Shown: positions 21 through 62,799 of the stretch, one piece after another
How positions within the stretch are numbered: the first letter of the stretch is position 1
How the letters are laid out: each line of letters opens with the position of its first letter
Source of the DNA: Calvatia gigantea
Lineage: Eukaryota > Basidiomycota > Agaricomycetes > Agaricales > Lycoperdaceae
NCBI GenBank assembly: GCA_025093985.1
Contig: JACAAK010000003.1
Span: forward strand, 4,464,001-4,528,000
Direction: 5' to 3'
Length of the DNA stretch: 64,000 nucleotides
The notes under the pieces: generated by a model
The model's database searches: none
Told to the model about the DNA's origin: nothing
Seen by the model: the letters and a program-made list of their open reading frames with translations, nothing else
Position numbers and translations under genes: made by a program

Positions 21-905
21 ATGTCCAATGGAATTTCAGAGTCGCTCAGTCCTGCTTGTAGCGGTTTTCCTCACCAGTTCAATAGCAACAATGGCCCTCA
101 ATCTTAATGAACAAACTCTTGTGGCGCTACAAATCACGGAACAGTCCTTTCCCGTTCCTGGTATTGCCAACCCAGCAGATGTCCCCCTATCCATCCTCGA
201 AATCGTTCAGGTAAGGAGAATAGCATGTTTTGTCCGGCACAAAACCATTCTCGATATCCAAACAATTAAGGCCAATAAAGCAGAATTAATCACCGTGGGA
301 AGGGATCCCTGTTTTATCGTAGAGACTGTCATCCAAAAGGTACATGTGTGCCAGAATGGGCGAACCATCAATGATTGTGCGATGATAAGTTACGGCACGC
401 AGGCATGCTAGTAGTATACATGAGCCTCCCTTTCTCCAATAACCCCGACTAGCACTCGAAGTTAAACAGTGATCTGCGATACATTGGGAAACGTGTCAAA
501 AAGGTCAAAGGGCGGTCTGGAGTGAAGAAAATACTCGGTCGCAGAACGAACCGGGCTGCGATTTAAGGCTGTCGGGAATACCTCCCGCATGCTATGACCT
601 TGTTCGGCGTAGGCGGTCCGTACATATTGACCATGATGTACTTCAGGACCGATTTCCCTCTAATTTCAACAGGACATGGAGGTTCGCAAGCGGCTAGCCA
701 GTGTGCACGGCCTCCTGATATTGCAATGTTAGGAGCGCCGTCGCACCCTCTCCCTCCACCAATACAAGAGCGGAACGACCAGCGACGGGTGATCAAGCGG
801 GAATGAGCGAAATTATCCAACAGCGAATGGATGTTGCACCATCGGGTCCGGCAGGTTCCTCGCCTGCGACGGGACTCAACCCTTCAAATATATCAGGGAA
901 TTGAC
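21..905 (+). pseudogene. MLKL-N-terminal-like small protein, copy 1 (broken)
   Basis: First copy of the small helical gene family. The 13-nt first exon is at 21-33, but its donor GT has decayed to AT. Exon 1 (about 88-210) encodes a stretch beginning MALNLNEQTLVALQ and ending SILEIVQ, followed by a good donor at 211. The exon-2 acceptor has lost its CAG. An indel near 380-400 shifts frame just before the usual RHADMLV motif. The exon-3 region keeps DLRY and GRSGVKK, but a deletion near 560 removes the DQGTIQDCRE region in frame. The last exon (about 670-905) keeps the long-linker signature (QER..., DQAG.NEI) but the conserved C-terminal tail is missing. Family identity is secure by comparison with intact copies at 9.6, 22.6 and 36.3 kb. 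It is almost certainly non-functional. Confidence 0.85.
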
Positions 906-1459
906 CCCGGGGAGTAGCGGAATCATATTGACTAGAGGGTGATGAGGTGTTCACCGTTTGGGATGCTTAGCACTTGTGCCGTATTTGGTGAAGGCATAAT
1001 TTTTCGTAGGAGGGCCATTGTGCGTGGGACCAGTTGTAAAAAATACCTGACCGAGGGCATTGCCGCATAGGTAGATGCGGGTGCATTTCTTTACAAACCA
1101 CGTAGGTCCCAGTGACGAAGTGCGGCGGATGGTGGCGGATTGCTGTTTCTCATTATAATCCCACGAGGATAATGGCTGTGAGAAGGTCGGGGAAGTGATG
1201 GGTGGGGAAGTTGATATCACAGATCATGGCGATTGCAGAAATATCCAATGAGTGATTGGAATAACCTTTTATGAATGAGTGCCTAGACCATCGTGGCAGA
1301 AGGGTTCTAAGTCCACTAAAATACTCAATCCACTCAGGCAGGCCGCTCGTTGTCTTTCCCTGTGCTTGCGCTCATTATGGTCAATGGGATTTTCCGAGTT
1401 GTCCCCGACATGATTACACCATGATGCTTAACGGCCTGGGAACAGAAGTTTACTCTACC
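906..1459. other. Duplicated intergenic flank, no gene seen
   Basis: No credible reading frame. Pieces resemble the 3' flanks of other family copies, for example the GGGTGATGAGGTGTTCACCGT stretch at about 940 has a close relative at about 38056. The segment at 1290-1430 resembles the DNA just upstream of the F-box-like remnants near 4.0 and 44.5 kb. It is part of the duplicated unit rather than unique sequence. Confidence 0.5.
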
Positions 1460-1830
1460 CACCCGCCACCGGCCCATGGCACTAAATCCCTCTTTCCCTC
1501 TGTCATCTCCCGCTTTCTAGCTTGCAGAATCACGATATTGCGGCAATATAGAGATGATCTATCGTCAGATATGGAAACGATTGTTCAGTTGTTGCAGTTG
1601 AGCAGGGGGATGAAGAAGCTTGATGGGGCGGGCGCTGGCGTCTCATTTGGTTGCCTGTGCTTCTTCAGTGAGAGTGGTATAATTAGGGTGCCCGGGATTG
1701 AGATTGATTGGTAGGTAGGCGATTGACCTGTCAACCCACAAAAATGGGAACCATTCCCCCACTTACATCCCAGGCGCAAATTTTTTGCACGTAAATATAC
1801 TGTTGATGCGGCACAGGTCACATTGATATA
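1460..1830 (+). pseudogene. F-box-like gene remnant 1 (middle part only)
   Basis: A fragment matching the middle of the F-box-like copies near 4.5 and 24.7 kb. The stretch CCCACCCGCC...GGCCC at about 1460 and the later ATCGTCAGATATGGAAACG at about 1563 recur there in the same order. The N-terminal F-box segment itself is absent here, so function cannot be read from this copy alone. A 147-codon open frame runs through 1271-1714, but its translation does not match the family frame and I regard it as accidental. The assignment depends wholly on position and nucleotide likeness to the other remnants. Confidence 0.4.
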
Positions 1831-2259
1831 ATATAAAGTTCAAAAGGTGCGTCCTTCGATATGACATACTGTACACTCTGGAATCAGGATGATGATATCA
1901 GTTGTATTGAGTTGTTGACATAGTGTACGTAAAATGATGGAACCGAAATTCCCTAATTTAACCCCATCTTCTCCAAATCCAATTTGGGCTCAAGCGCTCA
2001 TTGTTCGATGAATTTGGCATGTTGCCTATCCTTGAATGATAACGGCCTGATTGGTGTGGGACTCTAGGTTATTGCACATCCAGGCCAATATGCAGCCTCA
2101 CAGATTCCTGCTCTTTCTTACGTTCTACTCAACTCATAGGTGGTGTAATTACTACCCAGTCCAAGAACTCCCGGACCATACCTGAAATTTGTGAAAACTT
2201 CGTATTTGTTGCTGATTCATTTACTTCCCCCTCATCTATCTCGTCTGAAAAACAAAGGT
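1831..2259. other. Upstream region of copy 2 with decayed promoter
   Basis: Noncoding. It contains the CCAGGCCAATATGC element at about 2080-2093, which in intact copies lies just after a TATA box. Here the TATA box has decayed to an unrecognisable CTAGGTTATT. Nothing else recognisable. Confidence 0.5.
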
Positions 2260-3150
2260 ATGACGGAGGTTTAGGATCACTCGACCCTACTCGTTGCGAA
2301 TTCAACTTACCAGCTTAACAGCCATGATGGCTCTCAACATCAGTGAACAAACCCTTAATGCACTTTAAATCGCGGAACAGTCTTGTCCCGTCCCAGGTGT
2401 TGCCCTCTCCATCCTTGTGATCGTTCAGGTGAGGAGAGCAGCATCGTTTCATTGAGCCTAATACCATTATCGATGTTCTAGGCGGTCAAGTCCAATAAAG
2501 AAGAATTTACCGCGATAGGAACGGATTCCTGCCTTATTGTGGAGACCATCCTAAGAGCAATCCGGGGTGAAGAGAATAATCGTTATCTACTGAACCAAGG
2601 TGTGATTCAAGACTGTCGAGAACGGCTCGCGCACGCTATGACCCTGTTCGGCGTAAGCGATCCTCGTAATATCGTTCATGACGCATTTCAGAACCGATTA
2701 CCCTTAGTTCCAGCAACTAACCAGTGTGCATAATCTTTTGATTACAACGCTCGAAGCGTTGTTGCATCCTCTATCTCCACGAATCCAACCACAATCGCAG
2801 TTGCAAATACCCTCTTCTTCACTCCCCTCAAATCTTTCTCCACAGGCGCAAGGACCCTTTATATCTACCGCCCAGTTTGGCCAATTGTCTTTGCTATCCA
2901 GACCCCAAGTATCTCAAGAAAGAGCAGAACAACGAGAAACGAGGGATCAAGCACGAACGAATGAAATTACTCAGCATCAAATGAACTGATACCATCAAGG
3001 ATGCGATTCAATTCTTTCTGGGGTATCACAAGTCGCTCTTCCCCTGGTGTTGGCCACGATTACGTTGCAGGGGGTGTGAATATCACAAGGGATGATAGTA
3101 TCAACGTCATTGAGACTAGCAATCACATCTATTTGTCTTTTGTTCGGTGA
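2260..3150 (+). pseudogene. MLKL-N-terminal-like small protein, copy 2 (broken)
   Basis: Family copy with several lesions. Exon 1 (ATGGCTCTCAACATC at about 2324) carries a TAA where other copies have CAA, in the ALQIAEQ region, and is shortened in the PVPG..A segment. Exon 2 begins with the usual KEEF but is joined by deletion, after the VETI motif, directly to exon-3 sequence. That exon-3 part (QGVIQDCRERLAHAMTLFGV) is well preserved and is followed by a normal donor at about 2669 and acceptor TTAG at about 2719. The last exon keeps the long linker (QERAEQRETRDQARTNEITQ) and then a frameshift, after which the C-terminal tail is still recognisable up to the stop at 3148-3150. It is a pseudogene of the long-linker subgroup, whose closest relative by eye is the tail fragment at 34.4 kb. 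Confidence 0.85.
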
Positions 3151-4238
3151 GAACCAACGTACCTCTTTTTTCGTACATGCAGTTTCATTTTCGGGGGCTA
3201 GATGTCTCCACCGCGGGCACTACACAACACTATTGGTATAATATACATTTCTGTAGCATTCCGCCTTGGGGATGGAAAAAAACATGTCATCCTCACCTCG
3301 GTTAGTCAATTAATCTCTACTCTGCACGGAAATCGTTAGGTACTTGTTTAAGTAGTTCTACTCGTATCATCCGGGATGTCTCACCATGATTCCAACTTGG
3401 GAGCGATTTTGGACGAGCATTGGACTTCTTCCTCTCAGCCTATGAACTAAAAGCTCCGCATTTGGACACACAATCCATCCCTGCATCTCTCCATACCCAT
3501 GCGCTGTTATGAGGTCAACTAATTAAGCCCCAGCGATATATAAGTACAAGAGTCGCGCACCCTCTCTACCATTCACCGGACTCATCTTCTTGATGGTGGG
3601 GGCTACGTGGGTTTTGATGCTTCGAACACAAAGCTGCACCATTTTTCGTGCGCAAGTGCCATCACCATTTTAACAATGTGGTGCGCGACTGCTGTCCTCA
3701 CCTTGGAGGAACTCATTGGGGCGGAGTTGAAACGGGAATGCCCATGAAATATATGCAGCCATTTTCGAGGAAGGAGAGCCATGGAATTTCGTCAAGTTGT
3801 GGGTCCGAGTGGTACAGCGTGAGGGATTGTTGTTTGATCCGAACTTGGGAGTTTCTCGATATACTCCGACGAGTGTAACGGCCATACGTGCGAGGAGGCT
3901 GGAGAAGTGATAATGCAACACCAAAAGCCGAGATGATTGCAGAATAGACAAGTGATCAGATCGACCGTTGCGGCGGCAAGGGGGTTCCAAGTCTACTGAA
4001 ATGAGTAACTGAGGCACGCCACTCGCTACGCATTCATTTGAGTTGCCCTGAGGGATCGGCCACGTGTTATCCCGGACATAATTGCGATCCAGGTAGTCAT
4101 GCCTACTAGACCAGCCAGTTCGCGGGGACACAACTTTATCGCAACCTTACCTGTGCACTGTTCAGGCGCCCTTAGCGCTTCCGTTCCCACGACTAATAGA
4201 CACACGCCTTCTAGCCGACCTCACCAACTCCCGGGCCC
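3151..4238. other. Duplicated flank between small gene and F-box-like remnant
   Basis: No gene. The first part is the conserved 3' flank of long-linker copies: TTTTTCGGGGG..AGATG and an ATTGGTRTAA block recur at about 34690-34740 and 37510-37560. The segment 3600-3860 (GATGCTTCGAACACAAAGC, then GGAACTCATTGGGGCGGAG) recurs near 35115, 37925 and 38340, which marks the common duplicated unit. Confidence 0.6.
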
Positions 4239-5170
4239 ACGTCTATCGGTCCCGTCCTACCTGGGCTCTTCCACGAGACTCTCCGCAATCCCCGCGACGA
4301 TCTCACAACCATCAATCAATGTGCGCCCACTGGCATTTCACTCTAATACATTGTGCGGCAACACCTTTTTTCTGAGCTCGTCCTCCACAGGTTCCCACTC
4401 TCCGCGGAGAACTAACGACAGGAATGTGGGGCATGGATAAGGACAAGGACAACAGCAGCAACAGAAACCCATTGTTCCCCCAACCCGCACACTCCCACCT
4501 CCTCTCGAACATCCGCCGGCCCGCCTTCCAGCTGTAAAATGATGATATCATGGCGATCTAGAGATCATCCATGATCGATGATCCATCGCCAGATATGGAA
4601 ACGATTGTTCATAGAGTGTTATAGCAGAGCACAGGGCTGGAAGAGCTCTTCAGCAAGAGTGGCTAGGGTGTATGGGACGGTTTTCGTTGAGGATATCGTT
4701 GGGGGCTCGGCTCGTGGTAAGTAGTGGAGGAGGAGAGAGAGGAGTAGTGGTGGTGATATAGTGGACGACCATAGAGAAACTGACGTATCACTTTGGAAAC
4801 TATTGGCTGGCGCACTCGTGAATTGGATGCTTCACCATCTTCGGGCACGAGATCACTGGGCTTCGGACGATCCGTCGCAGCCTCTCTAATTTCGTCCACA
4901 ACTCATTGAAATATTGAAGAAGGATGCGGGCTTTGGGCAGCATTGCTTCTTCGGGACAGGTGATGGCTATTCCTATCTTCACAGTCCGGCGTGGCAGTTC
5001 CGCACATTACCCCGACCCAGAAGGGGAATTGCCCCAACCCCAGCTTCTCTTCAACACATATCATTCCAATGAGGATGCCCTGGTCAACCGGTCAAGTTTC
5101 GGACCTGGATCGATGAGACAAAGCCAGAGCTATCGGAACGCCGACGGTAAAAGTCAGTCTCCCTGATCAG
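4239..5170 (+). pseudogene. F-box-like gene remnant 2
   Basis: The start corresponds to the MSTGPVLPVELFHEILHNL segment of better copies, but the ATG is ACG here (4239) and an indel disrupts PVELFH. The following DDLTTxxQCA and YIV..HLFSELVLHRFPL segments are recognisable in shifting frames up to about 4420. Sequence continues in the family order (GLRTI/LSNF near 4870-4900, then a W.FRTLP..GIAPTPASL segment to about 5170). The LPVEL..EIL..L pattern followed by a V.C...R.IV...LFS segment is typical of basidiomycete F-box-like proteins, which usually recruit substrates to SCF ubiquitin ligases. That function is inferred from family knowledge only. Many frameshifts make this copy non-functional. 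Confidence 0.55.
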
Positions 5171-9184: not shown

Positions 9185-9350
9185 ATTGGCGCAAACCCAA
9201 ATCGGTCATCAGCAATCCAACCATCACCATCCTTCGTGCGAAGGATGGGACCCCGGAAACCGGATCTCGACTACACCGATCGTGAGAAGGCCCAAAGCCA
9301 CATCAGAGATCTCACACAGAGCGTCTAATAAACAAACTCGAGGTCCGCCT

Positions 9351-9573: not shown

Positions 9574-10569
9574 ATGTCAAATGGAGGTTTGTACTCACGA
9601 CCCCGCTGTAGCGAACCGTCCTTATCACTTCAGCAGCGATAATGACGTTCAATATCAATGAACAAACCCTCAATACGCTACAAGTTGCAGGACAGTCTTT
9701 TCCCATCCCAAGCGTTGCCACCGCAGCGGTTGTCGCTCTCTCCATCCTTGAAATCGTTCAGGTGAGAAGCGTAGCATGATTTTGCGCAGCCTAAAGTCCT
9801 TATAAATATCCCAGACGGTGGGGATTAAGAAAGAAGAATTTTTTGCCATAGGACGAGATTCCTGTTTCATCGTGGAGATTGTCATTCAAAGGGTGCAAGT
9901 AGACCAGAATGGACGAATCCCTAACAACCCCGCAATGCTACGACATGCAGATATGCTAATAGCGTATGTTGAGTTTTTCCCCTCCTTAATATCCCTAACT
10001 CAGGTGACACAGGGATTTACGATACATCGAGAAACGCGTTGAGAAGGTCAAAGCGCGGTCTGGATTGAAGAAATTATTTAGGCTTCAGAGAGAGAAAAAG
10101 ATAATCCAAGGCTGCCGCGAACGCCTCATGCATGCCATGGCACTGTTCGGCGTAAGTCACAATATCTTTCACAATATATTTGAAATTCAGAACCAAAATT
10201 TCCCAGTTTCAATACGACGTCGAGATTCGCAATCAACTAGCGATCGTGCAAAACCTCCTGAATATGATGTTAGAAACAGTTTCGTTCCCTCCATCTCCGC
10301 GAATACAACCGCAGCCGTGGTGGCAGATACCCTCCCCTTCACACCTCTCAACTCCTGCTGAACAAATGCAAGGAATGCAAAACGTGATGCCATCGAGTCC
10401 AACAGGTTCCCAGACTGGGGCTGGGTTTGATTCCTTCGGAAACACCCAGAACCATCGTTCTTCCAGTGTCGGGCACGCTCTTGTTGTAGGGGATGCCAAT
10501 GATACGAGAGACGAAAGCTTCAACGTCTTCGGGACCGGTAATACCATCTATTTTTCTATTGCTCGGTGA
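9574..10569 (+). CDS. MLKL-N-terminal-like (HeLo/HELL type) small protein, copy 3, intact
   Basis: Intact five-exon gene: 9574-9586, 9637-9761, 9815-9963, 10013-10151 and 10207-10569, predicted 262 aa. The first exon encodes MSNG. An alternative start is ATG 9642, giving 256 aa. The N-terminal about 160 residues form a four-helix pattern: NEQTLNTLQVAGQSFPIP then a hydrophobic helix ending SILEIVQ; KKEEFFAIGRD..FIVEIVI; RHADMLI...DLRYIEKRV..VKARSG; and IQGCRERLMHAMALF followed by FQYDVEIRNQL. This matches the MLKL N-terminal-like/HeLo-like helical domain of agaricomycete cell-death and NLR-type proteins, which can act on membranes. A Pro/Gln linker leads to a conserved tail with DESFNVFGTGNTIYF. 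No enzyme domain is present. The domain call is by motif. A role as a cell-death effector is inference. Confidence 0.8.
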
Positions 10570-12348: not shown

Positions 12349-12350
12349 TA

Positions 12351-22644: not shown

Positions 22645-23640
22645 ATGTCAAATGGAGGTCCGTACTCACAACCCCACTGTAGCAAGTCGTCCTTACCACT
22701 TCAACAGCAGCGATGGCGCTCAATATCAATGAACAAACCCTCAATACACTACAAGTTGCAGGACAATCTTTTCCCATCCCAAGCGTTGCCACCGCAGCGG
22801 TTGTCGCTCTCTCCATCCTTGAAATCGTTCAGGTGAGAAGTGTAGCATGATTTTGCGCAGCCTACAGTCCTTATAAATATCCCAGACGGTGGGGATTAAG
22901 AAAGAAGAATTTTTTGCCATAGGACGAGACTCCTGTTTCATCGTGGAGATTGTCATTCAAAGGGTGCAAGCAGACCAGAATGGACGAATCCCTAACAACC
23001 CGGCAATGCTACGACATGCAGATATGCTAATAGGGTATGTTGAGTTTTTCCCCTCCTTAATATCCCTAACTCAGGTGACACAGGGATTTACGATACATCG
23101 AGAAACGCGTTGGGAAGGTCAAAGCGCGGTCTGGATTGAAGAAATTATTTAGGCTTCAGAGAGAGAAAAAGACAATCCAAGACTGCCGCGAACGCCTCAT
23201 GCATGCCATGGCACTCTTCGGCGTAAGTCACAATATCTTTCACGACATATTTGAAATTCAGAACCAAAATTTCCCAGTTTCAATACGACGTCGAGATTCG
23301 CAATCAACTAGCGATCGTGCAAAACCTCCTGAATATGATGTTAGAAACAGTTTCGTTCCCTCCATCTCCGCGAATACAACCGCAGCCGTGGTGGCAGATA
23401 CCCTCCCCTTCACACCTCTCAACTCCTGCTGAACAAATGCAAGGTATGCCAAACGTGATGCCATCGAGTCCAACAGGTTCCCAGACTGGGGCTGGGTTTG
23501 ATTCCTTCGGAAACACCCAGAACCATCGTTCTTCCAGTGTCGGGCACGCTCTTGTTGTAGGGGATGCCAATGATACGAGAGACGAAAGCTTCAACGTCTT
23601 CGGGACCGGTAATACCATCTATTTTTCCATTGCTCGGTGA
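22645..23640 (+). CDS. MLKL-N-terminal-like (HeLo/HELL type) small protein, copy 4, intact
   Basis: Intact gene, predicted exons 22645-22657, 22708-22832, 22886-23034, 23084-23222 and 23278-23640, 262 aa (256 aa if started at ATG 22713). Four-helix N-terminal domain, short Pro-rich linker (QPWWQIPSPS), then a tail with DESFNVFGTGNTIYF ending IAR. All intron boundaries and reading phases equal those of copy 3, from which it differs by few substitutions. It is followed by the same 3' flank. The 22-kb locus is probably the parent, because it continues directly into the F-box-like remnant as other array units do, whereas the 9.6-kb block is cut into a Tc1 element. No signal peptide or transmembrane segment is visible. 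The first helix region (SVATAAVVALSILEIVQ) is strongly hydrophobic. Confidence 0.8.
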
Positions 23641-24376: not shown

Positions 24377-25400
24377 ATGTCCACCGGTCCTGTCCTACCC
24401 GTTAAGCTTTTCCATGAGATCTTCCACAACCTCCGTAACGGTGGCGGTCTCACCGCACTAAAACGATCCGTGCCCGTCTACACAACTCTTTAATACATCG
24501 GACAACAACGCCTCTTCTTCGGGTCCATCGATATTCTCCACCAGTTCCCATCGACGTGTCTGATCAACGGCCACTGGGATCTTGAGAAACAGGAAGACAC
24601 GAACAACAAGATACTCTATGTTTATTGCTCCTCCAATCAGTGCGCTAGCATATCCTCTCCCATGCCCGCTGACTCACGCTCCAACCCTGCCCACCCGCCG
24701 CCGGCCCGCAGCAACGCCACCATCTGACCCAGCCTTCCTCTCCGTCCTCATGCTCCTCCTAGCTCATAACCTACACAAAACCACGATATCATGACGATAC
24801 AGGGTCGATTTGTCGTTGGATACGGAGGAGATCGTAAGGGGGGTGTTGTGGAGGAGTACTGGTCGGAGGTGCTGGATATGGAGGGTAGGAGGGTGTCGCG
24901 CCATATTTAGTTGTCTGTGCTGAGTCGGTGAGGGTGGTTAGGGTGTATGGGACTGTGTTGAAGGTGTCGTTTAGAGGATATGGGGAGCAGGAGCGGGAGT
25001 GGCAACACAGTGATCGACCGTCGACCGATGTATTCTCCGCGGGATCGCTCGCCCGTCGCCCTGACGTGTTGGACGCGACGACGGCTTCAAGCACGAAATT
25101 GCTGGACTTCTGACGATCCCTCACGACCTTCTCAACCTGGTTCATGGCCAGTGAGGGAGGATTTGCTCTTTACGGGGCCGACGCTTCTTCGGGGTGGGTG
25201 ATGTCTATTTTTAGTACGGCGTGGCGGCGGCACACATATTCTCAGCTTGGGAGGGGAACCACCTCAGCGTTCGGCCTCAGCTTCTCTTCAGCACCCACTT
25301 CTCCAACGAGGATCTCCTGGTCAAGTTTTGAATTTGGATTGACGAGACAAAAGGCTGTCGTTCCGCTTCACCGCATGTTCACGGAATGCCGACGGTAAAT
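24377..25400 (+). pseudogene. F-box-like gene remnant 3 (best preserved N-terminus)
   Basis: ATG at 24377 opens MSTGPVLPVKLFHEIFHNL followed by a Gly-rich loop and LTALKRSVPVYTTL, then a TAA (24491) where other copies continue CSTLRYIV. The LPVxLFHEI.HNL pattern fits the first half of an F-box. Beyond the stop the frames break repeatedly, but short conserved pieces recur in order to about 25400 (LTHAP.LP, LLLAHNL, ASEGGFALYGADASS, then ISWSSFEFG). It is followed directly by segment X, as in the 4-5 and 38-40 kb units. Non-functional as read. The F-box call is moderate, and a substrate-receptor role would follow only from family knowledge. Confidence 0.55.
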
Positions 25401-28072: not shown

Positions 28073-29079
28073 ATGTCTAACGGAGGTTCGGACTCGCACC
28101 CCTGCTGTAACAAATCATTCTTACCACTTTAACAGCACCAGTGGCTCTCAACGTCGGTGAACAATGCCTCAAGGCGTTACAAGTCGCGGGCCATTCTTTT
28201 CCTCTCCCTAGCATGGTCGTCGCGGCATGTGTTGCTCTATCTATCCTTGAGGTCGTTCAGGTGAGGAGTGTAGCACATTTTCGTCCGGCCCGGAGCTCTC
28301 ATCAATATCCCAGACGGTGAAGTTCAATAAAGAAGAGTTTGTCGCGATAGGGAGGGATTCCTGTTTTATTGTAGAGACTGTCGTTCGAAGGGTGCAGATA
28401 GGCCCGAATGGACGGATTCTCAATGACCCCGCAATGCTACGACACGTAGACATGCTAGTAATGTGCGTTGAACTTTTATTTCTTCTGTAACCCCAACTAG
28501 CGCTTAAAGCCGCACAGTGATCTGCGATTTACCGAGAAACGTGTCAAGCAGGTTAAAGGACGGTCTGGAGTGAAGAAAATATTCAGACTTCAACCGGACC
28601 AAGGTACAATTCGGGACTGCCGAGAACGCCTCACGCATGCTATGACTCTGTTCAGTGTAGGTGATCCCTCACGACATCGTTCATGATGGATTTCAGAACC
28701 GATTTTTCTTTTAGCTCCAATACGATGCTGAGGTTCGCAAGGAACTGGCGAGTGTGCACAGCCTTTGATCACAATGCGAGAAACATTACCCCACCGTCCG
28801 TCCCCGCAAATACAGCCACAACCATGGTGGCAGATACCCTCCCCTTCATACCCCCTAACTCCCTCTCAACATACACCAGGAATACCAAACATGACGCCAT
28901 CGATTCCGACTGGCTTTCCAGCTGCGATGGGATTGGATTCCTTCCGGAATACCCAGAATTCTTTTTCTTCTGGTGTCCCATACTCCTGTGTTGCAGGGAA
29001 CGGGAATAATATAAGCCGAGACGATAGTTTTAACGTCTTCGGGACTGGTAATCACGTTTATTTTTCTGTTGCTCGATGA
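28073..29079 (+). pseudogene. MLKL-N-terminal-like small protein, copy 5 (one frameshift)
   Basis: Exons 28073-28085, 28136-28260, 28314-28462, 28518-28656 and 28715-29079 follow the family pattern with all splice sites kept. The internal Met used by copies 3 and 4 is Val (GTG) here, so only the upstream 13-nt exon can supply a start, which supports that exon model. All four helices are present. One base is missing near 28760 (AGCCTTTGATC, against CTCTTGATC elsewhere), which puts a TGA just after the last helix. The linker and tail (SRDDSFNVFGTGNHVYF) continue open in the next frame to 29079. The loss lies in a short T run, so a sequencing error is possible. If real, a tail-less domain would be made. 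Confidence 0.8.
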
Positions 29080-30139: not shown

Positions 30140-30600
30140 ATGTCCATCGGTCCCTTTCCTGCCTGTTGAGCTCTTCCATGAGACCCTACACAACCTCCAT
30201 GACGATGATCTTAACACTCAAACAATGTGCGCTCGTCTGCAGTAATCTCCAATACGGCATGCAAGAGTACCTTTTCTCCTCGTTCATCCTCCACCAGTTC
30301 CCATCCCCACGGCGAACTAGCGACCTCGGGGCGGGAAGACAAGAATAGGAACGAGAAGCGCTCTGCTCATGTCTCCTCCAACTCGCACGCTCGTATCCCT
30401 TCTTTCACATCCGCCGCCTCACCCTCCAAACCTACCCGCGTCGTCACGAGGATGTGCCGGAGGCCCTTCCCCCGAGCTTTTAAGCTCACTTCCTCGTCCG
30501 CAGAGTCCACCTCACCTGCTCATGTCATTTGCAGAACCTGCCCCTACGCGGAATTCGCCCCGTCTCCAGAGCTCACCTCACCTCATCTGCAGGGTTGACC
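30140..30600 (+). pseudogene. F-box-like gene remnant 4 (truncated)
   Basis: ATG at 30140 opens MSIGP, and then a one-base change of frame leads to VELFHETLHNLHDDD, LTLKQCALVCSNLQYG and a LFSSFILHQFPSPRRTSDL stretch, the clearest view of the F-box second half in the window (V.C..L.Y....LFS). The sequence then decays and joins malic-enzyme sequence near 30600, with no segment X between, so this unit has suffered a deletion. Not functional as read. Confidence 0.55.
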
Positions 30601-34032: not shown

Positions 34033-34355
34033 TAGTATTTCGGCTGCAAGACAAAAATAGGGATACCATATAGCACGGTTGGCTATCACGTCGATATTCT
34101 CGGGATTTAAGTCAAAGCATTAAGAGTCTCGCTGAAAACAAAGTCGAAGTCGAATCGATGGGACCTGTGAGTCGAACTATACACACTCAAACGAATTATA
34201 CCTTACATACATTTCCAGAGTAGCATTTTCTTTCTTCCTTCCCGGAGATCGGACTGGGCTGGCAGTGCCGGCCTTCATCAATATCCATACCACCAGCGCA
34301 GACCAAGATTCAACACTCCTGAAGTTGGTGTCACGTCCACGTGTCCCTGCTTGAC
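34033..34355 (+). pseudogene. Segment X fragment 3, embedded between small-gene parts
   Basis: Matches the middle of segment X at 45.62-45.86 kb (AAAACAAAGTCGAAGTCGAATCGATGGGACCTGTGAGTC, then CATTTTCTTTCTTC and GATTCAACACTCCTGAAGTTGG). Both ends join small-gene sequence, so this is a recombination product and not part of an ordered unit. Confidence 0.6.
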
Positions 34356-34646
34356 CCATCAGAATTGTTATCCAGACCCAAAGTGTTACAAGTAAGAGCG
34401 GAACAGCGAGCAGCTGGGGATCAAGGACGAACGAATGACGTTACCCAGCAGCAAATGACCATGACGTCATTGAGCTTGACTGGTTCCCTAGCTGGGATGC
34501 GATCCAATTCCTTCCAGGGTACCATGAATCCTCTTTCCCCTGGTGTCGGCTATGGTTACGTTGCAGGGGTTGTGAATATTACAAGGGATAATAGTGTCAC
34601 CGTCTTCGGGACTGGCAACCGCATCCATTTGTCTTTTTCTCGGTGA
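34356..34646 (+). pseudogene. Small-protein tail fragment from another family copy
   Basis: The 3' part of a last exon: long-linker signature (QVRAEQRAAGDQGRTNDVTQ), a GMRSNSF..T segment, GYVAGVVNITRDNSVTVFGTG and a stop at 34644-34646. It is open throughout. Its closest relative by eye is the tail of copy 2, not copy 6 just upstream, so the locus is a mosaic of two copies. Confidence 0.75.
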
Positions 34647-35180
34647 GAACCGACATACTTACCCCTTTCTTCGTATATGTAATTTCTTTTTCGGGGGATA
34701 GATGTTCCCACTGCGGGCGCCACGCAGCATTATTGGTGTAACAGATATTTCTGATTCCGCTGTGAAGATGGAAAAAACATGGCAACATGACATTCCTTAC
34801 CTCCATCAGTCATTGAATCTCCACTCTGCATTGAAGTATTCGGTACCTATTGTACTCAAGTAGTTTTGCTCGCGTTAAGTAAGATACCTTGCTGTGATTC
34901 CAGCTTGGGAATGATTAGGACTAGTAGTGAACTTACTCTCAGCCTATGAACTGAAATCGCCGTATGTAGACCACATTCTCTCCTTAAATCTTTCCATACC
35001 CATGTGCTACTACGGGGTTGGTGAATCAAAGCTCCAGCGATCAGTGATGGGTGCAAGAGCCGCACACCCGCACCATTGTTGGCCGGACTTATCCTCCTCG
35101 CGGTGGGGGCTGGGTCTGGATGCTTCGAATACGAAGCTACACTGTTTTTCATGCGTGGCTTTTAGACAGAGCCACCACCA
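34647..35180. other. Duplicated 3' flank, no gene
   Basis: Matches the flanks at 3150-3640 and 37490-37990, including GCTTCGAATACGAAGCTACAC. It ends where malic-enzyme sequence begins. Confidence 0.6.
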
Positions 35181-36348: not shown

Positions 36349-37487
36349 ATGTCCAATAGAGGTTTGAATTATCTGGTCCTCCTTGTTGCAAACTGTCCTC
36401 ACCAGTTCAAAAGCAGAAATTTCTCTCAACATCGTCGAGGCACTGCAAATTGCAGGGCGGTCGTTTCCTGTCCCTGGTATTGCCATTGCGGCAGGTGTTG
36501 CTCTTTCCATCTTTGAAATTGTTCAGGTGAGGAGCATAACATTACTCCGCCCCGCCTATAGCCCTCATCGTATCGCAGAAGGTGAAGACCAACAAGGAAG
36601 AATTTATCACGATAGGAAGGGATTCCTGCTTAATTGTAGAGACCATAATTCAAAAGGTGCTTGAAGTTGGCCAGGGTGGACAAATCTTCAACGACCCCAC
36701 GATGTTACGACACGCAGACATGCTGGTTGTGTATGTTGAGCTTCCCTTCCTCTGATACGCCAACTAGCGCTCAAAGCTGCACAGCGACTTGCGATACATC
36801 GAGGGACATGTCAGGAAGGCTACAGAGCGGTCCGGGGTGAAGAGATTATTCAGTTATCGACTGGACCAAGACACGATTCAAGACTGTCGAGAACGCCTCA
36901 CGCGCGCTATGATGACTTTCTTCTGTGTGAGTGATCTTTGTAATACTCCTCGTGACATAATTTAGAACTGATTTTCCCCTTAGTTTCAATACGACCGTGA
37001 GATCCGCAGGCAGTTGGCCGATCTGCACCACCTCTTGATTATGGTGCTTGGGGCGCCATCGCCCCATCTATCTCTGCGACTCCAACCACGACCGCAGTGG
37101 CAAATGCCCTCTTCTCCGTCGCCTCCTCCTCAACAAACGCAAATACCCCCTATTTCTACTATCCATCTTGACCAAATACCAAACTTCCCCATTCTTGCAG
37201 CTTCGCCACCAAGGCCCCAAATAATGCAAGAACTTGGGGCAGAACAAGGAGCAGGGGGAGGTCAAGCACGAGCGAGCGAACTTACCCAACAGCAAATGGA
37301 CATGAATTTATCGAACTCGACTGGTTTTCCAGTCAGGATGCGATTCAATTCCTTTCGGGATACCACGAATCATCTTTCTCCTGGTGTCAGCTATCCTTAT
37401 GTTGTAGGGTGCCCGAATAATACGAGGGATGATAGCTTCAATGTCATTGGGAGCGGGAATCATATCTATTTATCTTTTGGTCGGTGA
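36349..37487 (+). CDS. MLKL-N-terminal-like (HeLo/HELL type) small protein, copy 7, intact long-linker form
   Basis: Predicted exons 36349-36361, 36417-36526, 36579-36730, 36785-36926 and 36984-37487, about 306 aa, all phases consistent. The internal start ATG of other copies is absent, so translation must begin in the 13-nt exon (MSNR). Helix 1 is shortened at NEQTLK, and exons 2 and 3 each carry one extra codon. The domain reads ALQIAGRSFPVPGIAIAAGV...IFEIVQ, TNKEEFITIGRD, RHADMLVV, DLRYIEGHVRKA and IQDCRERLTRAMMTF. The last exon is much longer than in copies 3 and 4: a Pro-rich linker, the QELGAEQGAGGGQARASELT signature, then NNTRDDSFNVIGSGNHIYL and a stop at 37485-37487. It represents the intact long-linker subgroup. 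The function is inferred as for copies 3 and 4. Confidence 0.78.
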
Positions 37488-38632
37488 AAACCGACATACC
37501 TCTTTTTTTCTGGGGATAGCTATTCCCGTTATGCGCACTGTACCGCATTATTAACGTAATGGACATTTCTGTGGCATCCCGGCGCCAGGATGGAAAAAAT
37601 ATGGCATTCCTTACCCCCCTTGGTTAATCAAATTAATCAATTCCCGCTCTGCCTTGAAATAGGTGGTACTTATTTAAACGGTTCTACTCGCGTTAAGTGG
37701 GGTGTCTCACTACGATTCCAACTTATGGGTAATTTTGGGCCGGTTTGGATTTCTTACGAACAGAAAGCGCCGTATTTGGACACGCTCTCTGACTGCATTT
37801 TTCTGTACCCGCCCGCCTGCTACGTGGTCAATGAATCAAGCCCCAGCGATTGATGGGTGCAAGAGTCGTTCACCCTCTCCATCATTTATCGGGTTCAACC
37901 TCTACGTGGTTTGGACTGGGATTGGATGCTTCGAGTACAACCATTTTTCGTGCGCGCCCTTTGGACGGAGCCATCACCATCTTGACAATTCGATGCGCCT
38001 TGAGGAAGGAGTCATGCGATGTACCTCTGCGGGGTCGGAACGTTGATCGGAGTGGAGGGTGATGAAGTGTTCACTGTCGTCGTGAGGTGGTTTCAAGTTT
38101 GATGAGAGCGCAATATTGAGTATTGATAACAAATTTGTTCGCGGTTTCCAGGGGGTGGAACAGATAAAATTAACTTTGCGGGATGGAAGGCCGCCATTGG
38201 GACTACCACGTCGGCCTCACTAAAAGGGGGAACAGGGATGTGGTGAGCTGAGCGTGCGTTCGAAAACGATAGTAAATACGGCGAGTGGGCCAACTCCCTA
38301 GCGCATTTTCGGCGACTCACCGCTACCCTTGCCTTAAAGGAACTCATTGGGATGGAGCTGAAATGGGATTACCCACGGAATTCATGCTGCCATTTTCGAG
38401 GAAGGAGAGCTATGAAATTTCGTTGTTGTGGGTCCCAATGGTTCAGTGTGGGGGACTGTTGTTTGGGTCGGACTTCGAGGGGTCGTCCACGTGTTGTCCC
38501 GGACATAAGTAATCGCGCACAATCCAGGCAGAGTGGTCCTTAATATATTAATTAGACCAACCAGGGCACAAGTTTACTTACTTGGATTTCCATTCCCACG
38601 ACTGACAGACGCCTTCCAGCCAACTCCCAACC
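37488..38632. other. Duplicated flank between copy 7 and F-box-like remnant
   Basis: Shares blocks with 3150-4230: GATGCTTCGAGTACAACC near 37927 and GGAACTCATTGGGATGGAGC near 38338 have equivalents near 3618 and 3708. Overlapping frames here are not conserved between copies. Confidence 0.6.
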
Positions 38633-39220
38633 AATGTCCATTCTCCATCGGTCCCGTCCTGCCCGTCGAGCTCTTCCACGAAATCCTCCACAAGCTCCCT
38701 CACTATGACGATCCCACGATACTAAAACTCGTCTGCACGATGCTCCGATACATCGCGTAATCTCAGCGCTCAGCCTCAACCAGTTCCCATCTCCGCGGTG
38801 AACCAACGACCAGGAAGCGGGACGGGGACAGAAACAAGGGGAAGAACGGCAAAGAGAAACAAACCGTTCATATCTCCTCCAATATGTCTCCTCTCGCATA
38901 TACACTGCCTCACATTGCACAGGGTTGGAGGAGCCTGATTCTGAGGAGAGGCCGTATCCCAGCGTCTATTTAAATGCCTGTGCTTCTTTGGTGAGGGTAG
39001 CTGGAGTGTATGGGGCCGAATTTGCTGAGAGGGTGTCATTAAGAGCCCCGTTTGCGGTGGTGGAGGAGGAGGGGAGAAAGAGGAGTGGTGATGAAGTGGG
39101 CCGACAATTGGAAAACTAAACGCTGTGCTGGCTTGAGGCGCGGAATGGTTCAGCTTCTGACAACCCGTCACACGTTGCAGCCGCTCTAATCTCAAATTTT
39201 GGCTCGTTGAGGGACGATTA
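38633..39220 (+). pseudogene. F-box-like gene remnant 5
   Basis: This copy shows the clearest F-box start: SIGPVLPVELFHEILHKLPH, then DDPTILKLVCTMLRYIA and TAA at 38758-38760. The ATG (38634) is one frame off the conserved segment, because CATTCTCC replaces CATC. After the stop the LNQFPSPR segment and LVRVAGVYGAEFAERVSLRA remain readable to about 39118, then a DNPSHVAAALISNFGSL-like piece. The first 35 residues match the helix 1-2 pattern of an F-box. Not functional as read. Confidence 0.55.
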
Positions 39221-41174: not shown

Positions 41175-42344
41175 ATGTCCAACGAAGGTTCAAAATTGCT
41201 TAACCCTGCTTGTAGTGAAATGTCCTCACTGGTTTAACAGTGGCAATTGTTCTCAACGTCAATGAGCAAACCCTCAAGGCATTGCTAGTTGCAGGACAAT
41301 TTTTTTCCTGTCCCTGGCTTTGCCATCGCGGCAAATGTCGCCCTCTCTATCCTTGAGGTGGTTCAGGTGAGGGGAGTCATTTGAGTTCACCTGGTATAAT
41401 GGTCTTATTGATATCCAAGACGGCAAAGACCAGTAGAGAAGAATTAATCACGATAGGAAGGGATTCTTGTTTCATCGTAGAGACCATAATCTACAGGGTG
41501 CAGGTGGGCCAGAGTGGGCGGATCGTCAAGGACCCCGCAATCCTACGACACGCGGACATGCTGGTAGCGTACGTGAGTTCCTTTCTCCCGATATCTCTGA
41601 CCAGTGCTCAAAGCCGTACAGTGATTTGCGATACATCGAGAAACGTATCGGGAAGGTTAAAACACGGTCTGGAATGAAGAGAATATTTAATCATCGACTG
41701 GACCAAGGTGCGATTCAAGCCTGTCGAGAACGCCTCACACACGCTATGGCTCTATTCAGTGTAAGTGATCCCTCGCAATAATATTTATGACGTGTTTCGG
41801 AACTGGTCCCTCCTAGTTTCAATACGACAACGAGATTCGCGAGCAGCTGGCTAGCGTGCACAACCTCATGACTACAATGCTCGAAGCATTGTCGCACCCT
41901 CCATCCCCACAAATACAATTACAGCCACGGTGGCAAATCCCCTCTCCTTTTATCCCCCTAACTTCCTCTCAACAAACCCAGGGGTCCTCCATTTCCACTA
42001 TCCAGTATGAATTGCGATCTGATGTTTCAGCTTTCATGGATGCTCCTACTCCTATGACTTCACTACCCGACTCCAAAAGATCGAGAGGAAGCGCGGGACG
42101 ACGAGCAGCCCCGGACCAAGCACGAACAAATGATTTCCCCCAGCAGCAGGTGGATGTGGCACCACCGAGTCCGACTAACCCTCTCATCCAGCCGGCATTG
42201 GACCGCTTCCAAGATACCCAGAATCAGGTTTCTCCTGGTGCCGGTTCCACTTATGTTATAGGGGACGTGAGCAATACAAGCCGAGATGATAGCTTTAACG
42301 TCTTCGGAGCTGGTCATAACATCTATCTCTCTTTCAAACGGTGA
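41175..42344 (+). pseudogene. MLKL-N-terminal-like small protein, copy 8 (one frameshift in a T run)
   Basis: Exons 41175-41187, 41241-41366, 41420-41568, 41622-41760 and 41817-42344. Splice sites and phases are intact. The internal Met is Ile (ATT), so the start must be the 13-nt exon. Exon 1 contains a run of seven T at about 41302-41308 (GGACAATTTTTTTCC), where other copies fit six positions (TCTTTT). This one extra base is the only lesion, and the remaining exons are fully open to the stop at 42342-42344. The long linker (SRGSAGRRAAPDQARTNDFP with a QQQVD) and tail (TSRDDSFNVFGAGHNIYL) are well kept. Because the defect is a homopolymer length change, a sequencing error is a real possibility, in which case this is a fourth intact gene of about 318 aa. 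Confidence 0.8.
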
Positions 42345-44747
42345 AACCCAACATACCTCTTTCCTCCTGTTGTGGAAGTTTCGTTTTCTTCTTCGGCTGC
42401 TTTTGTTGTGTCGTGAGTTGCAAGGCATGTCCATTCGCAGACATTTTGGAATTTAGCTTTAGCAGCATTTACAGGATAGTGCGACGAGGAGTGTAAGAAC
42501 TAGAATACGCATATTAGATAATCGAGTTGAAATTCCATTACCCTACGAGAAATTTGTGGCGAATTTCGTGACGTATAGAACGCGTGGTATCGCTGGAGAC
42601 AAAACGCTATTACCCAAAGAAATTCTGTGGCTATTTTCGCCGCGGTTATAAGCGAGATCACTAGAGTTGATCAAGTCGCTAATTAAGGAAGGTGAAGGTA
42701 GGTAGGTGCGATGTGTTTGCATCGTAGGGTTTCGCCAAGTTGCAGGTCCCAGGGGTTCTTCCACACTGGTGTCCATCGCTAAATAACTAACATCAGTACC
42801 CCAGGCCTTGCCGTACATAAAACGCCTGACCCCATTTCCGCGAATGCCTGGAGGCCCCTCCTGGAATGTACGTCGTGCGAGGATGGAGTTGGAATATCTC
42901 ACCGCGTGACTCACCTTGATATTTCCTCCCCTGTAAACCCGCTTGCTGAAATTGTTCCAAAAATGTGTCATGGGGGACTCAGAGTAATTCAGCTTCTGAG
43001 CTAGCAATAATCCATGCTTCATGCATTGAACAACATCAGGGAGAGTTAGACACGATCTCTTTGGCCAGCCCCAGTGCTGTGCGAAGCAGTTGCGCAGGTG
43101 GGATGGCAAGGTTCAGACTATTCCCAATCCATCAAACATTGCCATTGAGAAAGAGAGACCCAGATCAATGATATGAAGTGACGATTAATTATACTTGTCG
43201 GTGAGTAAAAACGTTGAGTTATTTTTGCAAGTGCCACGTACAAGCCAAACCGGTTGGACGCATCTGCGGCCGTAATGGTCCTGCCTGTCAGCAGCATCTC
43301 GGAAGCAAGCTGTCAAAAGAGCCAAGAGGTCAGTTCAGCGCTCGGTGCCAACGTTGATTCGGGACGTCATAAAGATGGGTCATGGGGCTCATGTTGAGCT
43401 AGATGCAATCGTATCTTTCAATGCTAGATTGTGCGATCCTACGGTTGTCTGATGTCGGTTGAAATGAAAAAGGCGGATAGAAAAAGGAGAAAACCCGTCC
43501 CGAGGAGAATCTGACAGCTCACCTGGTGACCTGCTATTTGAATCAGTCGCAGGATACGAAAGATGATGAATGTAATGGTCGTACGAATTTGAAAAGAAGA
43601 CACAGAATACTTGAGAGGATCATGTTGTGACGCCAGGTTATGGGCACAAAACGACCTATTCAGTGTTCCACGTTCATCATCCAATGCTCTACACTCCATT
43701 CCTTTACCCTTCGCAGGGCAGTCAAAGTGTGAGAGGTGCTTCAAGTTCCAGCGAGTGTTGAATTCAGCAGATGGGTGTACGCCAGTTCAGTAAAAGCAAA
43801 TGACCAAGCCGACGGCTGGGACATCAGACTTGGACTCCAAAATCAGGCACAGGAGATAGAATATAAGATATTCGGGGTTACCTTATCTACATCACAGGTC
43901 CACAGTGATGGCGTGACATGGTATACGGCTCGTTGTAAACATGTTACCCATGTTTACAACTAACGCCAACTGACACTGCCAGAACAAGTATCATGAAATT
44001 TATTTATAGCGAACGCACAGATCGTCCGAGGGAACACCCAAAAGTCTGGGGTTCCCCTTTATGCTTCTTCCTTCCCTTTCCCCCTTTTACGCATCTACTC
44101 TCTTATTACACGCATGTACATCTACAAGTCGAACGTGACTTCGAGGCTGCTGATTTCTGTGTGAACGTGAGTCTCAACTTGTATTATCTTAAGTGAAGTC
44201 CGGTAGTCAACACTGCCGGCTTACACTCGTACAATGAAGCAGAATTATAGAGGATATAGTACACGGTGTTCGTCGGAACGGGCTATTGGGTGAGTGCTCA
44301 CCGCGTTACCGCAATGGCAGCATTGGGGCGCACTATGTTTGGAGTCATTGCAAGTCCCGGAGAAGGTGTTGGTGTCACGATATCCATCGGGTGTGGAGGA
44401 CGATGGGGAGCTTCGGGAGTCCTCTGGTTGAGAGACAGCGACAAGTAAAGTATAAAAGTCGAATATTGGCTGAGACGAGGATGTGGTACTATCTGATGAG
44501 GGATCAGAACAACCGTCGCGACGGAAAGGGATTCCGGGTTCGCTGAAGTGAATAACTGAAGTAAGCCAAATGCTCATTTAAATTACACCGAAGGAGTACG
44601 TACGGCTCGCGCGTTGCCCCGGACATAATCGCGCGATCCAATAGGTAAAGTAATGTATAACAGACCAACCAGTTCGCAGCGCTGTTGTATTTCCATTCCC
44701 ACGACTTGGCAGACGCCGCCTACGCACGCCTTCCAACCTCCTAACCC
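42345..44747. other. Flank of copy 8 and unassigned sequence
   Basis: 42345-42740 is the conserved 3' flank (TTTACAGGATAGTGCGACGAGG, then AAATTCTGTGGCTATTTTCG). From 42740 to 44480 I find no conserved gene. Minus-strand frames at 42543-43109 (it overlaps the conserved flank), 43439-43744 (one hydrophobic stretch ITFIIFRILRLIQIAGHQV) and 44245-44577 have no recognised domain. 44490-44747 is the usual flank preceding F-box-like remnants (CCCCGGACATAATCGCGCGA). Confidence 0.4.
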
Positions 44748-45300
44748 ATGCCCACCGGTCCCGTCCTATCCGTCGAGTTTTCTACGAAAAATTTCACAAT
44801 CTCCGTGGTGATGGCGACCTCACAACCCTCGAACAATGCGCGCTCGTCTCCAGCACTCCGATACATTGTGCAATTATCAATAGCACGTCTTCTCTGAGCT
44901 CACCTTCCACCAGTTCCTCTCTCCATGCCGAACCAATGAACAAGAGGCGACACCTCCCCTCACACGTCTGTCGCCTCACCCTCCATGCGTGATCCACAGC
45001 ACCGCTCGACGCTGCCTTCTTCTCCATCCTCTCCCTTCTCGCAACTCACAACCTATACAAAATCACAGCACCACGACGACATAGGGACGATCCATCGCCG
45101 GATACAGGAAGGGTTGTGCATGAGGTGTTGTGGAGGAGTACGGGATTGGAGAGCCTTGATCTTGCGGATAGACGTATGCTGGCATCTTGTGTGGTTGCCC
45201 TTGCTCCTTCGGTGTGAGTGGTCAGGCGTACGGGTTGGGCTTCCGACAATCCGTTGCAGCCTCCCCTATTTCGTGTGCAGCTCATTGAACGTTAAGGAGG
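44748..45300 (+). pseudogene. F-box-like gene remnant 6
   Basis: ATG at 44748 opens MPTGPVLSVEF, and a lost base then shifts frame out of FHEILHNLR. GDGDLTTLEQCALVSSTPIH and a FTFHQFLSPCRTNEQEA-like stretch follow in mixed frames, then an ARDWRALILRIDVCWHL piece near 45150-45190 that also appears in remnant 7 as a MALEELGLEDRQVPAS-like segment. Several frameshifts. It is followed by segment X and a malic-enzyme fragment, so this unit preserves the full ancestral order. Confidence 0.5.
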
Positions 45301-47343: not shown

Positions 47344-48328
47344 ATGTCCAACGGAGGTTCGGAATCACACAATTCTGCTTGTGGCTATTCGCCCTTACGA
47401 ATAAGAATTCAACAGCGATGATTGGTCCCACTATCAATGAACAAACCCTCAAGGCACTTCGAATCGCGGGACAATCCTTCCCCATCCCCAGTGTTGCCGT
47501 CGCGGCAGGTATTGCCCTCGCTATCCTTGAGGTCGTTCAGGTAAGGAGTGTAGTATTATTTTGTCTGGCCCAAAGCCCTTATCAATACCCAGACGATGAA
47601 GATCAATAAAGAAGAATTTCTTGCCATAGGAAGGGATTCATGTTTTTTCGTGGGTATTGTCATTCAAAAGGCGCAAGTGGACCAGAATGGACAAGTTTTT
47701 TATGACCCGGTGGCACTACGATATACAGACATGCTCATAGCGTATGTCTAACTTCCCTTCTCTCGATATCTTCAACTAGCACTAAAAGCCGTACAGTGAT
47801 CTGCGATACATCGAGAGACGTGTCAGGAAGGTCAAAGGGCGGTCTGGAGTGAAGAAAATGTTTAATCCCCGCTGGGAGCAAGGGATGATTCAAGACTGCC
47901 GAGAATGCCTTGTGCATGCTATGGCGCTGTTCGGTGTGAGTCATCCCTCGCAAGATCATTCATGACATTTCAGAACCGATTTTTCCTATAGCTCCAATAC
48001 GACATCGAGATCTGCAGGTATCTGGCTAGTGTGCACAATCTCTTGATTACGATGCTTGAGGCGCCATCATACCCTCTGTCTCCGCCAACTACAACCACAA
48101 CCGCAGTGGCAGATACCCTCCCTTTCACAATTCACAACTTCCCCTCATCAACCTCGAGGAATGCCAAACGCGATGCTATCGGGTCTGACGGGTTCCTCGA
48201 CTGGGACGGGATCTGATTCCCTCAGAAACACCCAGAATCATTGTTCCCTCAGCGTCGGGATTACGAGGGACGATAGCTTCAACGTCTTCGGAAATTGTAA
48301 TACTATCAATTTTTCCCTTACTGGGTGA
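47344..48328 (+). pseudogene. MLKL-N-terminal-like small protein, copy 9 (frameshift in linker)
   Basis: Exons 47344-47356, 47416-47540, 47593-47741, 47797-47935 and 47992-48328, with all junctions consistent. The complete four-helix domain is open (MSNG, TINEQTLKALRIAGQSFPIP, AILEVVQ, KEEFLAIGRD, DLRYIERRVRKVK, IQDCRECLVHAMALF, YLASVHNLLITMLE). An extra base near 48084-48090 (CCGCCAACTACAACC) shifts the linker, so the frame as read ends at 48214-48216 without the tail. The alternative frame carries PQPQWQIPS and the tail GITRDDSFNVFGNCNTINF to 48328. The tail itself is shortened compared with others. It may be a true frameshift yielding a domain-only protein. Confidence 0.8.
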
Positions 48329-60988: not shown

Positions 60989-61563
60989 ATGCCTGATGGA
61001 GGTCTGGAATTACTCAACCCTGCCTACAGTGAGTGTTCCTTACCACTGGAACAGTGGTGATGGCTCTCAACATAAATGAACAAACCCTGAAGACACTACA
61101 GATCATAGTGCAGTCTTTTCTAATCCCCAGTGTAGCCACCATGGCAAGTGTTGCCCTCCTTATTCTTGAAATCATTTAGGTGAGGAGAACAGCATCCTTT
61201 TGTACAGCATGGAATTTATGCCCTACCATAGACCATGAAGGCAAATAAAGAGGAGTTTATTGTGATAGGAAGGGATTCCTGCTTTATTATGGAGATTGTC
61301 ATTCAAAGGGTGCAAATGGGTCATAATAAGCATTTCTTGAATGACCCTGCAATGCTACAGTTCATAGACATACTGGTAATGTATGTTGTTCTTCTCTTCT
61401 TCCCAACTGGCACTCAAAGTCATACAGTAACCTACAATACATCAGAAAATGTGTCAAGAAGGCTAGGGGCCAGTCTGGGGTGAAAAATATATTCAGCTAT
61501 CAACTAGATCAAGATACAATTCAGGACTGTCGAGAATGCCTTGTACATGCTATGACCCTATTC
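60989..61563 (+). pseudogene. MLKL-N-terminal-like small protein, copy 10 (truncated)
   Basis: First exon 60989-61001 (MPDG), then 61055-61179, 61232-61380 and from 61428. Introns keep GT and AG ends. The final codon of exon 1 is TAG where all others have CAG (SILEIVQ). The domain reads LNINEQTLKTLQI, KANKEEFIVIGRD and QDTIQDCRECLVHAMTLF. The copy stops at 61563, at the end of exon 3, where sequence switches to the 3' flank of copy 11 in opposite orientation. Many changes from other copies are CG to TG or CA (for example CGACACGCAGAC to CAGTTCATAGAC). Non-functional. Confidence 0.85.
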
Positions 61564-61805
61564 CATCCTTTATTATACCCTCCATAAGTATTCCATTCTT
61601 ACACTACTTATCACACTGTCCTAAAAATATAACATACATAACAAAACTAAATGGCAATTTAGTACAGTGGTAAATACCCCCACACAAAAAAAGTTCCTGG
61701 ATGGATCATGCCTAACCCAATTCACTGCAATACAACTAGAGCCACTTGAAGAAGGAAGAAAAAAAATTCACATGTGAATATGGAGTGAAAGTGGTAAGTT
61801 GAATT
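61564..61805 (-). other. 3' flank of copy 11
   Basis: Read on the minus strand this matches the conserved 3' flank (for example AGGACAGTGTGATAAGTAGTG against GGACAGTGCAGTGAGGAAAG near 29252). The small number of remaining CG pairs shows the same decay as the gene. Confidence 0.65.
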
Positions 61806-62799
61806 TCACTGAGCAAAAGAAAAATTGATGGTATTACTGGTCCCAAAAACATTAAAGCTATCATTTCTTGTATCACTCACATCTCCAACAAGAGCATGCC
61901 TGACACTAGGAAAATGATGGTTCTGGATAGTATTTCTGAAGGAATCAGGTTCCATCCTGGTCAGAAAGCCTGTCAGACTCAATGGCATCATATTTGGCAT
62001 TCCTTGTATTTGTTGAGATGGAGTTGAGGGAAATGAAGGGGAGGGTATCTGCCAGTGCAGTTGTAGTTGTACTTGTGGAGACAAAGGGAGCAGTGATGTT
62101 TTGCACATTGCAACCAGGGTGCTGTGTACAGTAGCCAGCTGCTTGTGAATCTCAGTGTCATATTGGAACTAGGGGAAAAATAGGTTCCATAACACATCAT
62201 AAAAAATCTTTTGAGCAATCACTTACACTGAACAGAGTCACAGCATGCATGAGGCATTTCTGGCAGTCTTGGATTATACCTCAGTTCAAGTAGTGACAGA
62301 ATATTTTCTTTATTCCAGACCACTCTTTAACCCTCTTGACACATTTCTTGATGTATCGCAAATCACTGGGCAGCTTTGAGCATTAGCTGGGTTAACAGGA
62401 GAAGGGAAGTTCAACATACACTACTAGTATGTCTGCTCATTGTAGCATTGCAGGGTCATTAAGAATCCTTTCCTCCCAACTCACAGACATCCTTTGGAGG
62501 ACAATCTTGATGATCAAGCAGGAATCCATTCCTATCATGATAAACTCTTCTTTATTGGTTTTCACTACCTGGTATACCAATAGGGGCTTTGGGCAGGGCA
62601 AACTAGTGCTATGGTCCTCACTTGAGCAGTCTCAAGGATAAAGAGAGCAATACCCACTGTGATGACAACACTTGGGATAGGAAAGGTTTGCCTTGTAATG
62701 TGTAGTGCACTGAGGGTTTGTTCATTGATATTGGCTGCTGTTGAGCTGGTAAGGATGATTCACCACAAGCAAGTGATTCCAAACCCTCCATTGGGACAT
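61806..62799 (-). pseudogene. MLKL-N-terminal-like small protein, copy 11 (minus strand, decayed)
   Basis: Full-length but decayed copy on the minus strand, tail to tail with copy 10. The 13-nt exon is near 62799-62786 (ATGTCCCAATGGAG, one extra C). Exon 1 lacks the MALN segment. The donor of intron 1 is kept, exon 2 (KTNKEEFIMIGMDSCLIIKI) is open until a CGAC-to-CAAT region with a stop-generating TGA, and exon 3 has a TGA in the LDQG segment. The last exon (62169-61806) is open over 100 codons with PSPSFPSTPSQQIQ and a tail VSDTRNDSFNVFGTSNTINF. Most lesions are C-to-T or G-to-A. The only long frame left is the linker and tail. Confidence 0.85.

Follow-up and report, generated by a model that had tools for sequence, protein, structure and literature searches.

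The 64-kb window analyzed here (the whole stretch, C23:4,464,001-4,528,000, of the 46-Mb, 77-contig genome of Calvatia gigantea) contains eleven copies of one five-exon gene, found by self-comparison and alignment, which encodes a small, predicted helical protein with a Pro/Gln-rich linker and a conserved C-terminal tail. An earlier note on this DNA had described three of the eleven copies as intact and three as carrying a single 1-nt indel, and self-comparison, alignment, and splice models confirm this (Table 1): c3, c4, and c7 read open throughout, one single-base frame change is present in each of c5, c8, and c9 (in the tail region of c9 there is also a short deletion that keeps the frame), and c1, c2, c6, c10, and c11 are damaged by stops, deletions, an insertion, or the loss of the last exon. 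c3 and c4 are 92% alike across about 1.6 kb. With c4 as the query against the whole genome, 117 exon matches were obtained at E up to 10, all of them at C23:4,458,685-4,724,190, and the window is part of an array that spans roughly 265 kb of one contig and holds at least 30 copies. In the stretches read, exon mapping placed 26 copies at 4,458-4,605 kb and four more diverged ones (d1-d4) at 4,715-4,724 kb, in addition to fragments. The reading frame is open from exon 1 onward in nine of the 30 (c3, c4, c7, h1, h5, h14, d1, d2, and d4) and from exon 2 in g1, h2, and h8, and h7 is open over exons 2-5, while exon mapping and splice models gave no full-length open model for 17 of the 30, bearing out the view of a clustered, duplicating, and partly pseudogenized set. 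Automatic open frames for c5, c6, c8, c9, h3, h6, h10, and d3 were discarded because their exons were broken and their splice sites unlikely. A diverged query located further relatives at C7:260, 264, 270, and 310 kb, on C77, and at C23:4,884 and 4,915 kb, the last near the contig end; we read those at C7:260 and 310 kb, C77, and C23:4,915 kb, and among these a tail was visible only in the C77 copy and not in the C7 or C23-end relatives.

The first exon comprises only 13 nt (MSNGA), the next exons end at about ...ILEIVQ, ...DMLVA, and ...LFG, and the last exon encodes the linker and the tail. In c3, c4, and c7 all introns are of the GT/AG type and 49-68 nt long, giving models of 257, 257, and 304 aa. 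These grow to 262 aa (c3, c4) and 306 or 307 aa (c7) when intron 2 is ended at an earlier acceptor in the same frame, which fits the 262- and 306-aa proteins proposed previously. Outside the window, the d1 model has a poor donor at its second intron, and exon 5 of the d4 model was set by hand to a conserved acceptor. A protein search with a single sequence scored 469 candidates and found no homologue at E up to 10, a profile search over 5.8 billion proteins found six, and a second search added one. P0001, a protein of 338 aa whose longest contig measures 1.4 kb, shares 84% identity with d4, begins with MSNGA, as do the open array copies, and passes all four exon joins unbroken, so that its source was most likely spliced. 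It also carries three more residues at the intron 2 join than the short d4 model, which favors the earlier acceptor. P0003, P0004, and most of P0002 likewise read through the joins, P0005 and P0006 are partial, and P0007, which is 44% identical to P0001, keeps both the plan and the tail. Homologues that are unbroken across the exon joins support the five-exon model independently, and we infer that their source libraries hold transcripts.

To compare the parts of the protein, we used twelve open models and the ratio of nonsynonymous to synonymous substitution rates (dN/dS), which was given for 33 of the 66 pairs, none of them involving c3. The ratios, rough because dS often exceeds 1 and because only these 33 pairs are given, were 0.14-0.35 for the N-terminal domain (two pairs undefined), 0.02-0.50 for the tail (three undefined), and 0.13-1.63 for the Pro/Gln-rich linker (three undefined). 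Tail dN was the lowest of the three parts in all ten listed pairs with d1 or d2, and in some closer pairs it was no different from domain dN. Purifying selection thus acts on the N-terminal domain and on the ~35 residues at the C-terminal end, and the linker drifts faster. The proposed architecture of a stand-alone domain joined through a Pro/Gln linker to a conserved tail is supported by the comparison of the open copies.

Our interpretation, which we consider somewhat better than an even bet, is that the array encodes stand-alone MLKL-like death effectors of the basidiomycete MLKL-like (BaMLKL) form, each with a flexible Pro/Gln linker and a C-terminal signaling tag, in a cluster evolving by birth and death. 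Pfam MLKL_N was the best match of d2 (E 3.8e-4, 20.4 bits) and the top match of the homologue P0003 (E 0.0056), and it matched three of 19 family proteins and none of ten shuffles. The predicted model of P0001 is a helical bundle that includes the additional helix at the N-terminus typical of the basidiomycete form (predicted local distance difference test, pLDDT, 61-91 in each 10-residue block over residues 11-150), and the weaker P0003 model has a similar helix order. Several results limit this interpretation: the best score, that of d2, lies below the curated MLKL_N cut-off of 27 bits, c4 and c7, the only window proteins scanned, had no Pfam match at all, the fold matches fall within the range of unrelated helical bundles, some of which reach similar or higher Z, and when the genome was searched with the tail at E up to 10, all 27 candidates scored were family copies. 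A PF22215 scan of the genome itself gave no match, a PDB sequence search with c4 gave nothing useful, PDB searches with profile A3 and with d2 returned designed or unrelated proteins only, and PADLOC had no match for P0001, P0003, or P0007. The HeLo/MLKL-like assignment made earlier is supported in part, by the MLKL_N top matches and the predicted helix order. Taken together, sequence and models indicate that the N-terminal domain is remotely related to the MLKL/HeLo four-helix superfamily, below curated thresholds.

The array unit contains a second gene, which is F-box-like by a narrow margin: a 498-aa reading at C23:4,567,863 matches PF12937 with 24.4 bits, against a cut-off of 24.3 bits. 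Neighbor searches covered C23:4,444-4,618 and 4,700-4,730 kb. Between 4,458 and 4,605 kb, 14 of the 27 effector copies and fragments have an F-box stretch within 2.4 kb downstream on the same strand, including the inverted unit h12 and also c10, where, however, the opposite-strand c11 lies in between. With all 34 candidates scored and E limited to 0.001, the F-box gene has 24 matches in the genome, every one of them inside the array at C23:4,460-4,590 kb. Two F-box copies are open over long stretches (4,561,368 and 4,567,863), and all six in the window carry stops.

The array also holds three related NACHT segments, one of which is open (4,573.2-4,574.5 kb), and the decayed relatives of this gene at 4,589 and 4,601 kb look like tandem copies. 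A short motif, AHDFVINNPTMI, precedes the open NACHT; it occurs in the same setting at no fewer than ten other places in the genome and differs from the effector tail. The array NLR (NOD-like receptor) was considered as a receptor sharing the effector tail and was rejected on sequence. Of the 88 NACHT matches scored (among 330 candidates), eight fall on C23. By our own estimate this corresponds to about 0.4 expected per 265 kb, and the presence of one NACHT gene in the array is in itself unremarkable.

Several other elements are interspersed with the copies. A long terminal repeat (LTR)-type retrotransposon lies on the minus strand between c3 and c4 (12695-20658), with an open reading at 14858-18424 for reverse transcriptase, RNase H, integrase, and chromodomain. 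Tc1/mariner-type transposase stretches on the minus strand (8324-9205 and 11339-12055; 99.6% alike over 678 nt) flank c3, and a similar stretch is found at C23:4,528,663. A dispersed block, perhaps a short mobile element, recurs at 4977-5853, 25275-26064, 34088-34326, 39269-40074, and 45581-45896 (mostly 65-76% alike), with one copy within the exon 5 region of c6, and is also present at C23:4,447 kb on the minus strand and at C56:1,571 kb. A protein kinase gene is located within the array at 53368-54850 on the plus strand (Pkinase E 6.7e-23 for 53368-53832).

Table 1 Effector copies, F-box-like genes, and the NACHT gene of the array (window positions unless marked C23).
Feature	Position	Strand	State or setting	Basis or remark
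c1	21..1100	+	broken	exon matches, stops
c2	2275..3151	+	broken	deletions, stops
c3	9574..10569	+	five exons, open	
c4	22645..23640	+	five exons, open	recent duplicate of c3
c5	28073..29079	+	single frame change	exon 5
c6	33050..34647	+	broken	exon 4 stops, long insertion in exon 5
c7	36349..37487	+	five exons, open	
c8	41175..42344	+	single frame change	exon 2
c9	47344..48328	+	single frame change	exon 5
c10	60990..61563	+	without exon 5	
c11	61806..62799	-	broken	strand opposite to other window copies
Interrupted F-box-like gene	4245..4829	+	downstream of c2	tblastn with array F-box gene, stops
Interrupted F-box-like gene	24377..24954	+	downstream of c4	tblastn, stops
Interrupted F-box-like gene	30087..30411	+	downstream of c5	tblastn, stops
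Interrupted F-box-like gene	38581..39047	+	downstream of c7	tblastn, stops
Interrupted F-box-like gene	44675..45205	+	downstream of c8	tblastn, stops
Interrupted F-box-like stretch	63104..63389	+	after c10/c11	tblastn, stops
F-box-like genes	C23:4,561,233-4,562,204 and 4,567,728-4,569,356	+		99% identical over 322 residues
NACHT/NPHP3_N gene (L037)	C23:4,573,222-4,574,970	-	inside array	short N-terminal motif

Other explanations have to be weighed against death effectors of the BaMLKL form. The tail (consensus about V.G[DN].N..TRDDSFNV.G.GN.I.FS.AR) could be an amyloid signaling motif, and the array could supply the effectors of a HET-S-like NLR system whose NLR motif escaped the sequence search, which we regard as a real possibility, though somewhat less than an even one. 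The tail has many Asn, Ser, Val, and Gly residues together with Phe and Tyr, it contains a weak two-fold V.G..NN repeat with a spacing of 15 residues, the P0003 model shows low-confidence strands in it, PMC9815663 describes agaricomycete NLRs that carry short amyloid-like motifs at the N-terminus, and the array NLR bears a short motif ahead of its NACHT exon. However, the repeat barely exceeds shuffles (126 of 5000 matched it), the P0001 model has no tail strands, tail pLDDT is below 45 in both models, and the tail search described above met nothing tail-like outside the family. Of the HET-S/HELLP-type plan suggested by the earlier note, the effector domain, the linker, and the conserved C-terminal motif are present, but an NLR with the same tail was not among the 27 candidates scored; because no receptor carrying the tail was found, amyloid signaling can only be inferred. 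Known systems suggest by analogy that the tail most likely serves for docking or assembly, as a tag by which a sensor could cluster the proteins. It is rather doubtful that the family is simply a fast-duplicating helical one with an unrelated function, for example as a scaffold or adaptor, with a docking peptide and a likeness to MLKL that is generic to bundles. The sub-threshold matches in three of 19 proteins and the unrelated bundles at similar or higher Z would suit this explanation, whereas the MLKL_N top matches of d2 and P0003, the absence of matches among shuffles, and the pattern VPG.G.A...ALLL.QDVQ with NKEDF, kept in the C7 relatives that have no visible tail, argue against it.

The F-box-like gene raises the possibility of a functional pair, in which the F-box protein, acting through a Skp1-Cullin-F-box (SCF) ligase, would keep the MLKL-like protein low, and loss or mismatch of the pair, after hyphal fusion or in spores, would free the killer. 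The frequent downstream position and the confinement of all genome matches to the array, together with the Pfam match just above the cut-off, are consistent with such a pair, but most F-box copies are interrupted, no F-box match was found beside d1-d4 in the 30 kb read there, and co-duplication alone explains the linkage; we consider a functional pair unlikely. A more elaborate version, an allorecognition locus of MLKL-like killers with a new tag, a co-inherited F-box guard, and NACHT readers, in which mixed repertoires after hyphal fusion release the killer, appears a shade more improbable still. The least probable of the explanations is that of a mostly dying repeat family with little present function: the 17 of 30 copies lacking a full-length open model and the transposons in the array fit it, but the low dN/dS between open copies, the splice sites conserved over deep divergence, and the unbroken homologues in public sequence data do not.

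If the array does encode MLKL-like death effectors, a mechanism can be outlined by analogy with known systems (PMC9815663 and PMC12881547). The protein would remain silent as long as its C-terminal tag is not engaged by a sensor acting upstream, which is probably one of the genome's many NACHT receptors; this engagement would make the effector proteins cluster, and the clustered helical domains might then assemble at the plasma membrane, so that the cell would be killed or sealed off. Membrane activity, cell death, and activation through the tag are putative, while the gene structure, the array, and the pattern of selection were shown. As copies arise and are lost in tandem, the repertoire would continue to change, as expected for self/non-self recognition or defense.

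PMC9815663 describes BaMLKL domains as stand-alone or at NLR N-termini and reports effector-side motifs on only a few of about 500 basidiomycete MLKL-like proteins. Our proteins resemble these in a helical domain extended by one further helix at the N-terminus, in Pfam matches that lie at the threshold or under it, and in a stand-alone form shorter than 400 aa with a conserved C-terminal stretch. Unlike them, they occur here in at least 30 tandem copies, with a co-duplicated F-box-like gene and a tail that was found on no NLR among the candidates scored. With the ascomycete HET-S/HELLP proteins (HeLo/HELL plus amyloid motif) they share a helical executioner-type domain, a flexible linker, and a short conserved C-terminal motif, but no partner NLR with the same motif was found among the candidates scored and the amyloid nature of the tail is conjectural. 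The likeness to animal and plant MLKL consists in remote four-helix similarity and the predicted helix order; unlike these, the array proteins carry no (pseudo)kinase or other C-terminal domain and end in a short tag. Stand-alone BaMLKL proteins with a C-terminal motif were already known in small numbers. Apparently new, since we met none of them in the open-licence literature searched, are the tandem arrangement of 30 copies or more, the tail sequence, and the F-box gene duplicated along with the effectors.

According to PMC8229728, current models of somatic incompatibility in basidiomycetes all rest on ascomycete work. The array makes a good candidate locus for self/non-self recognition or immune cell death, and the F-box gene duplicated with it hints at an additional layer of control. 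With its many stand-alone MLKL-like proteins, whose tag is subject to purifying selection, it offers a concrete, testable locus.
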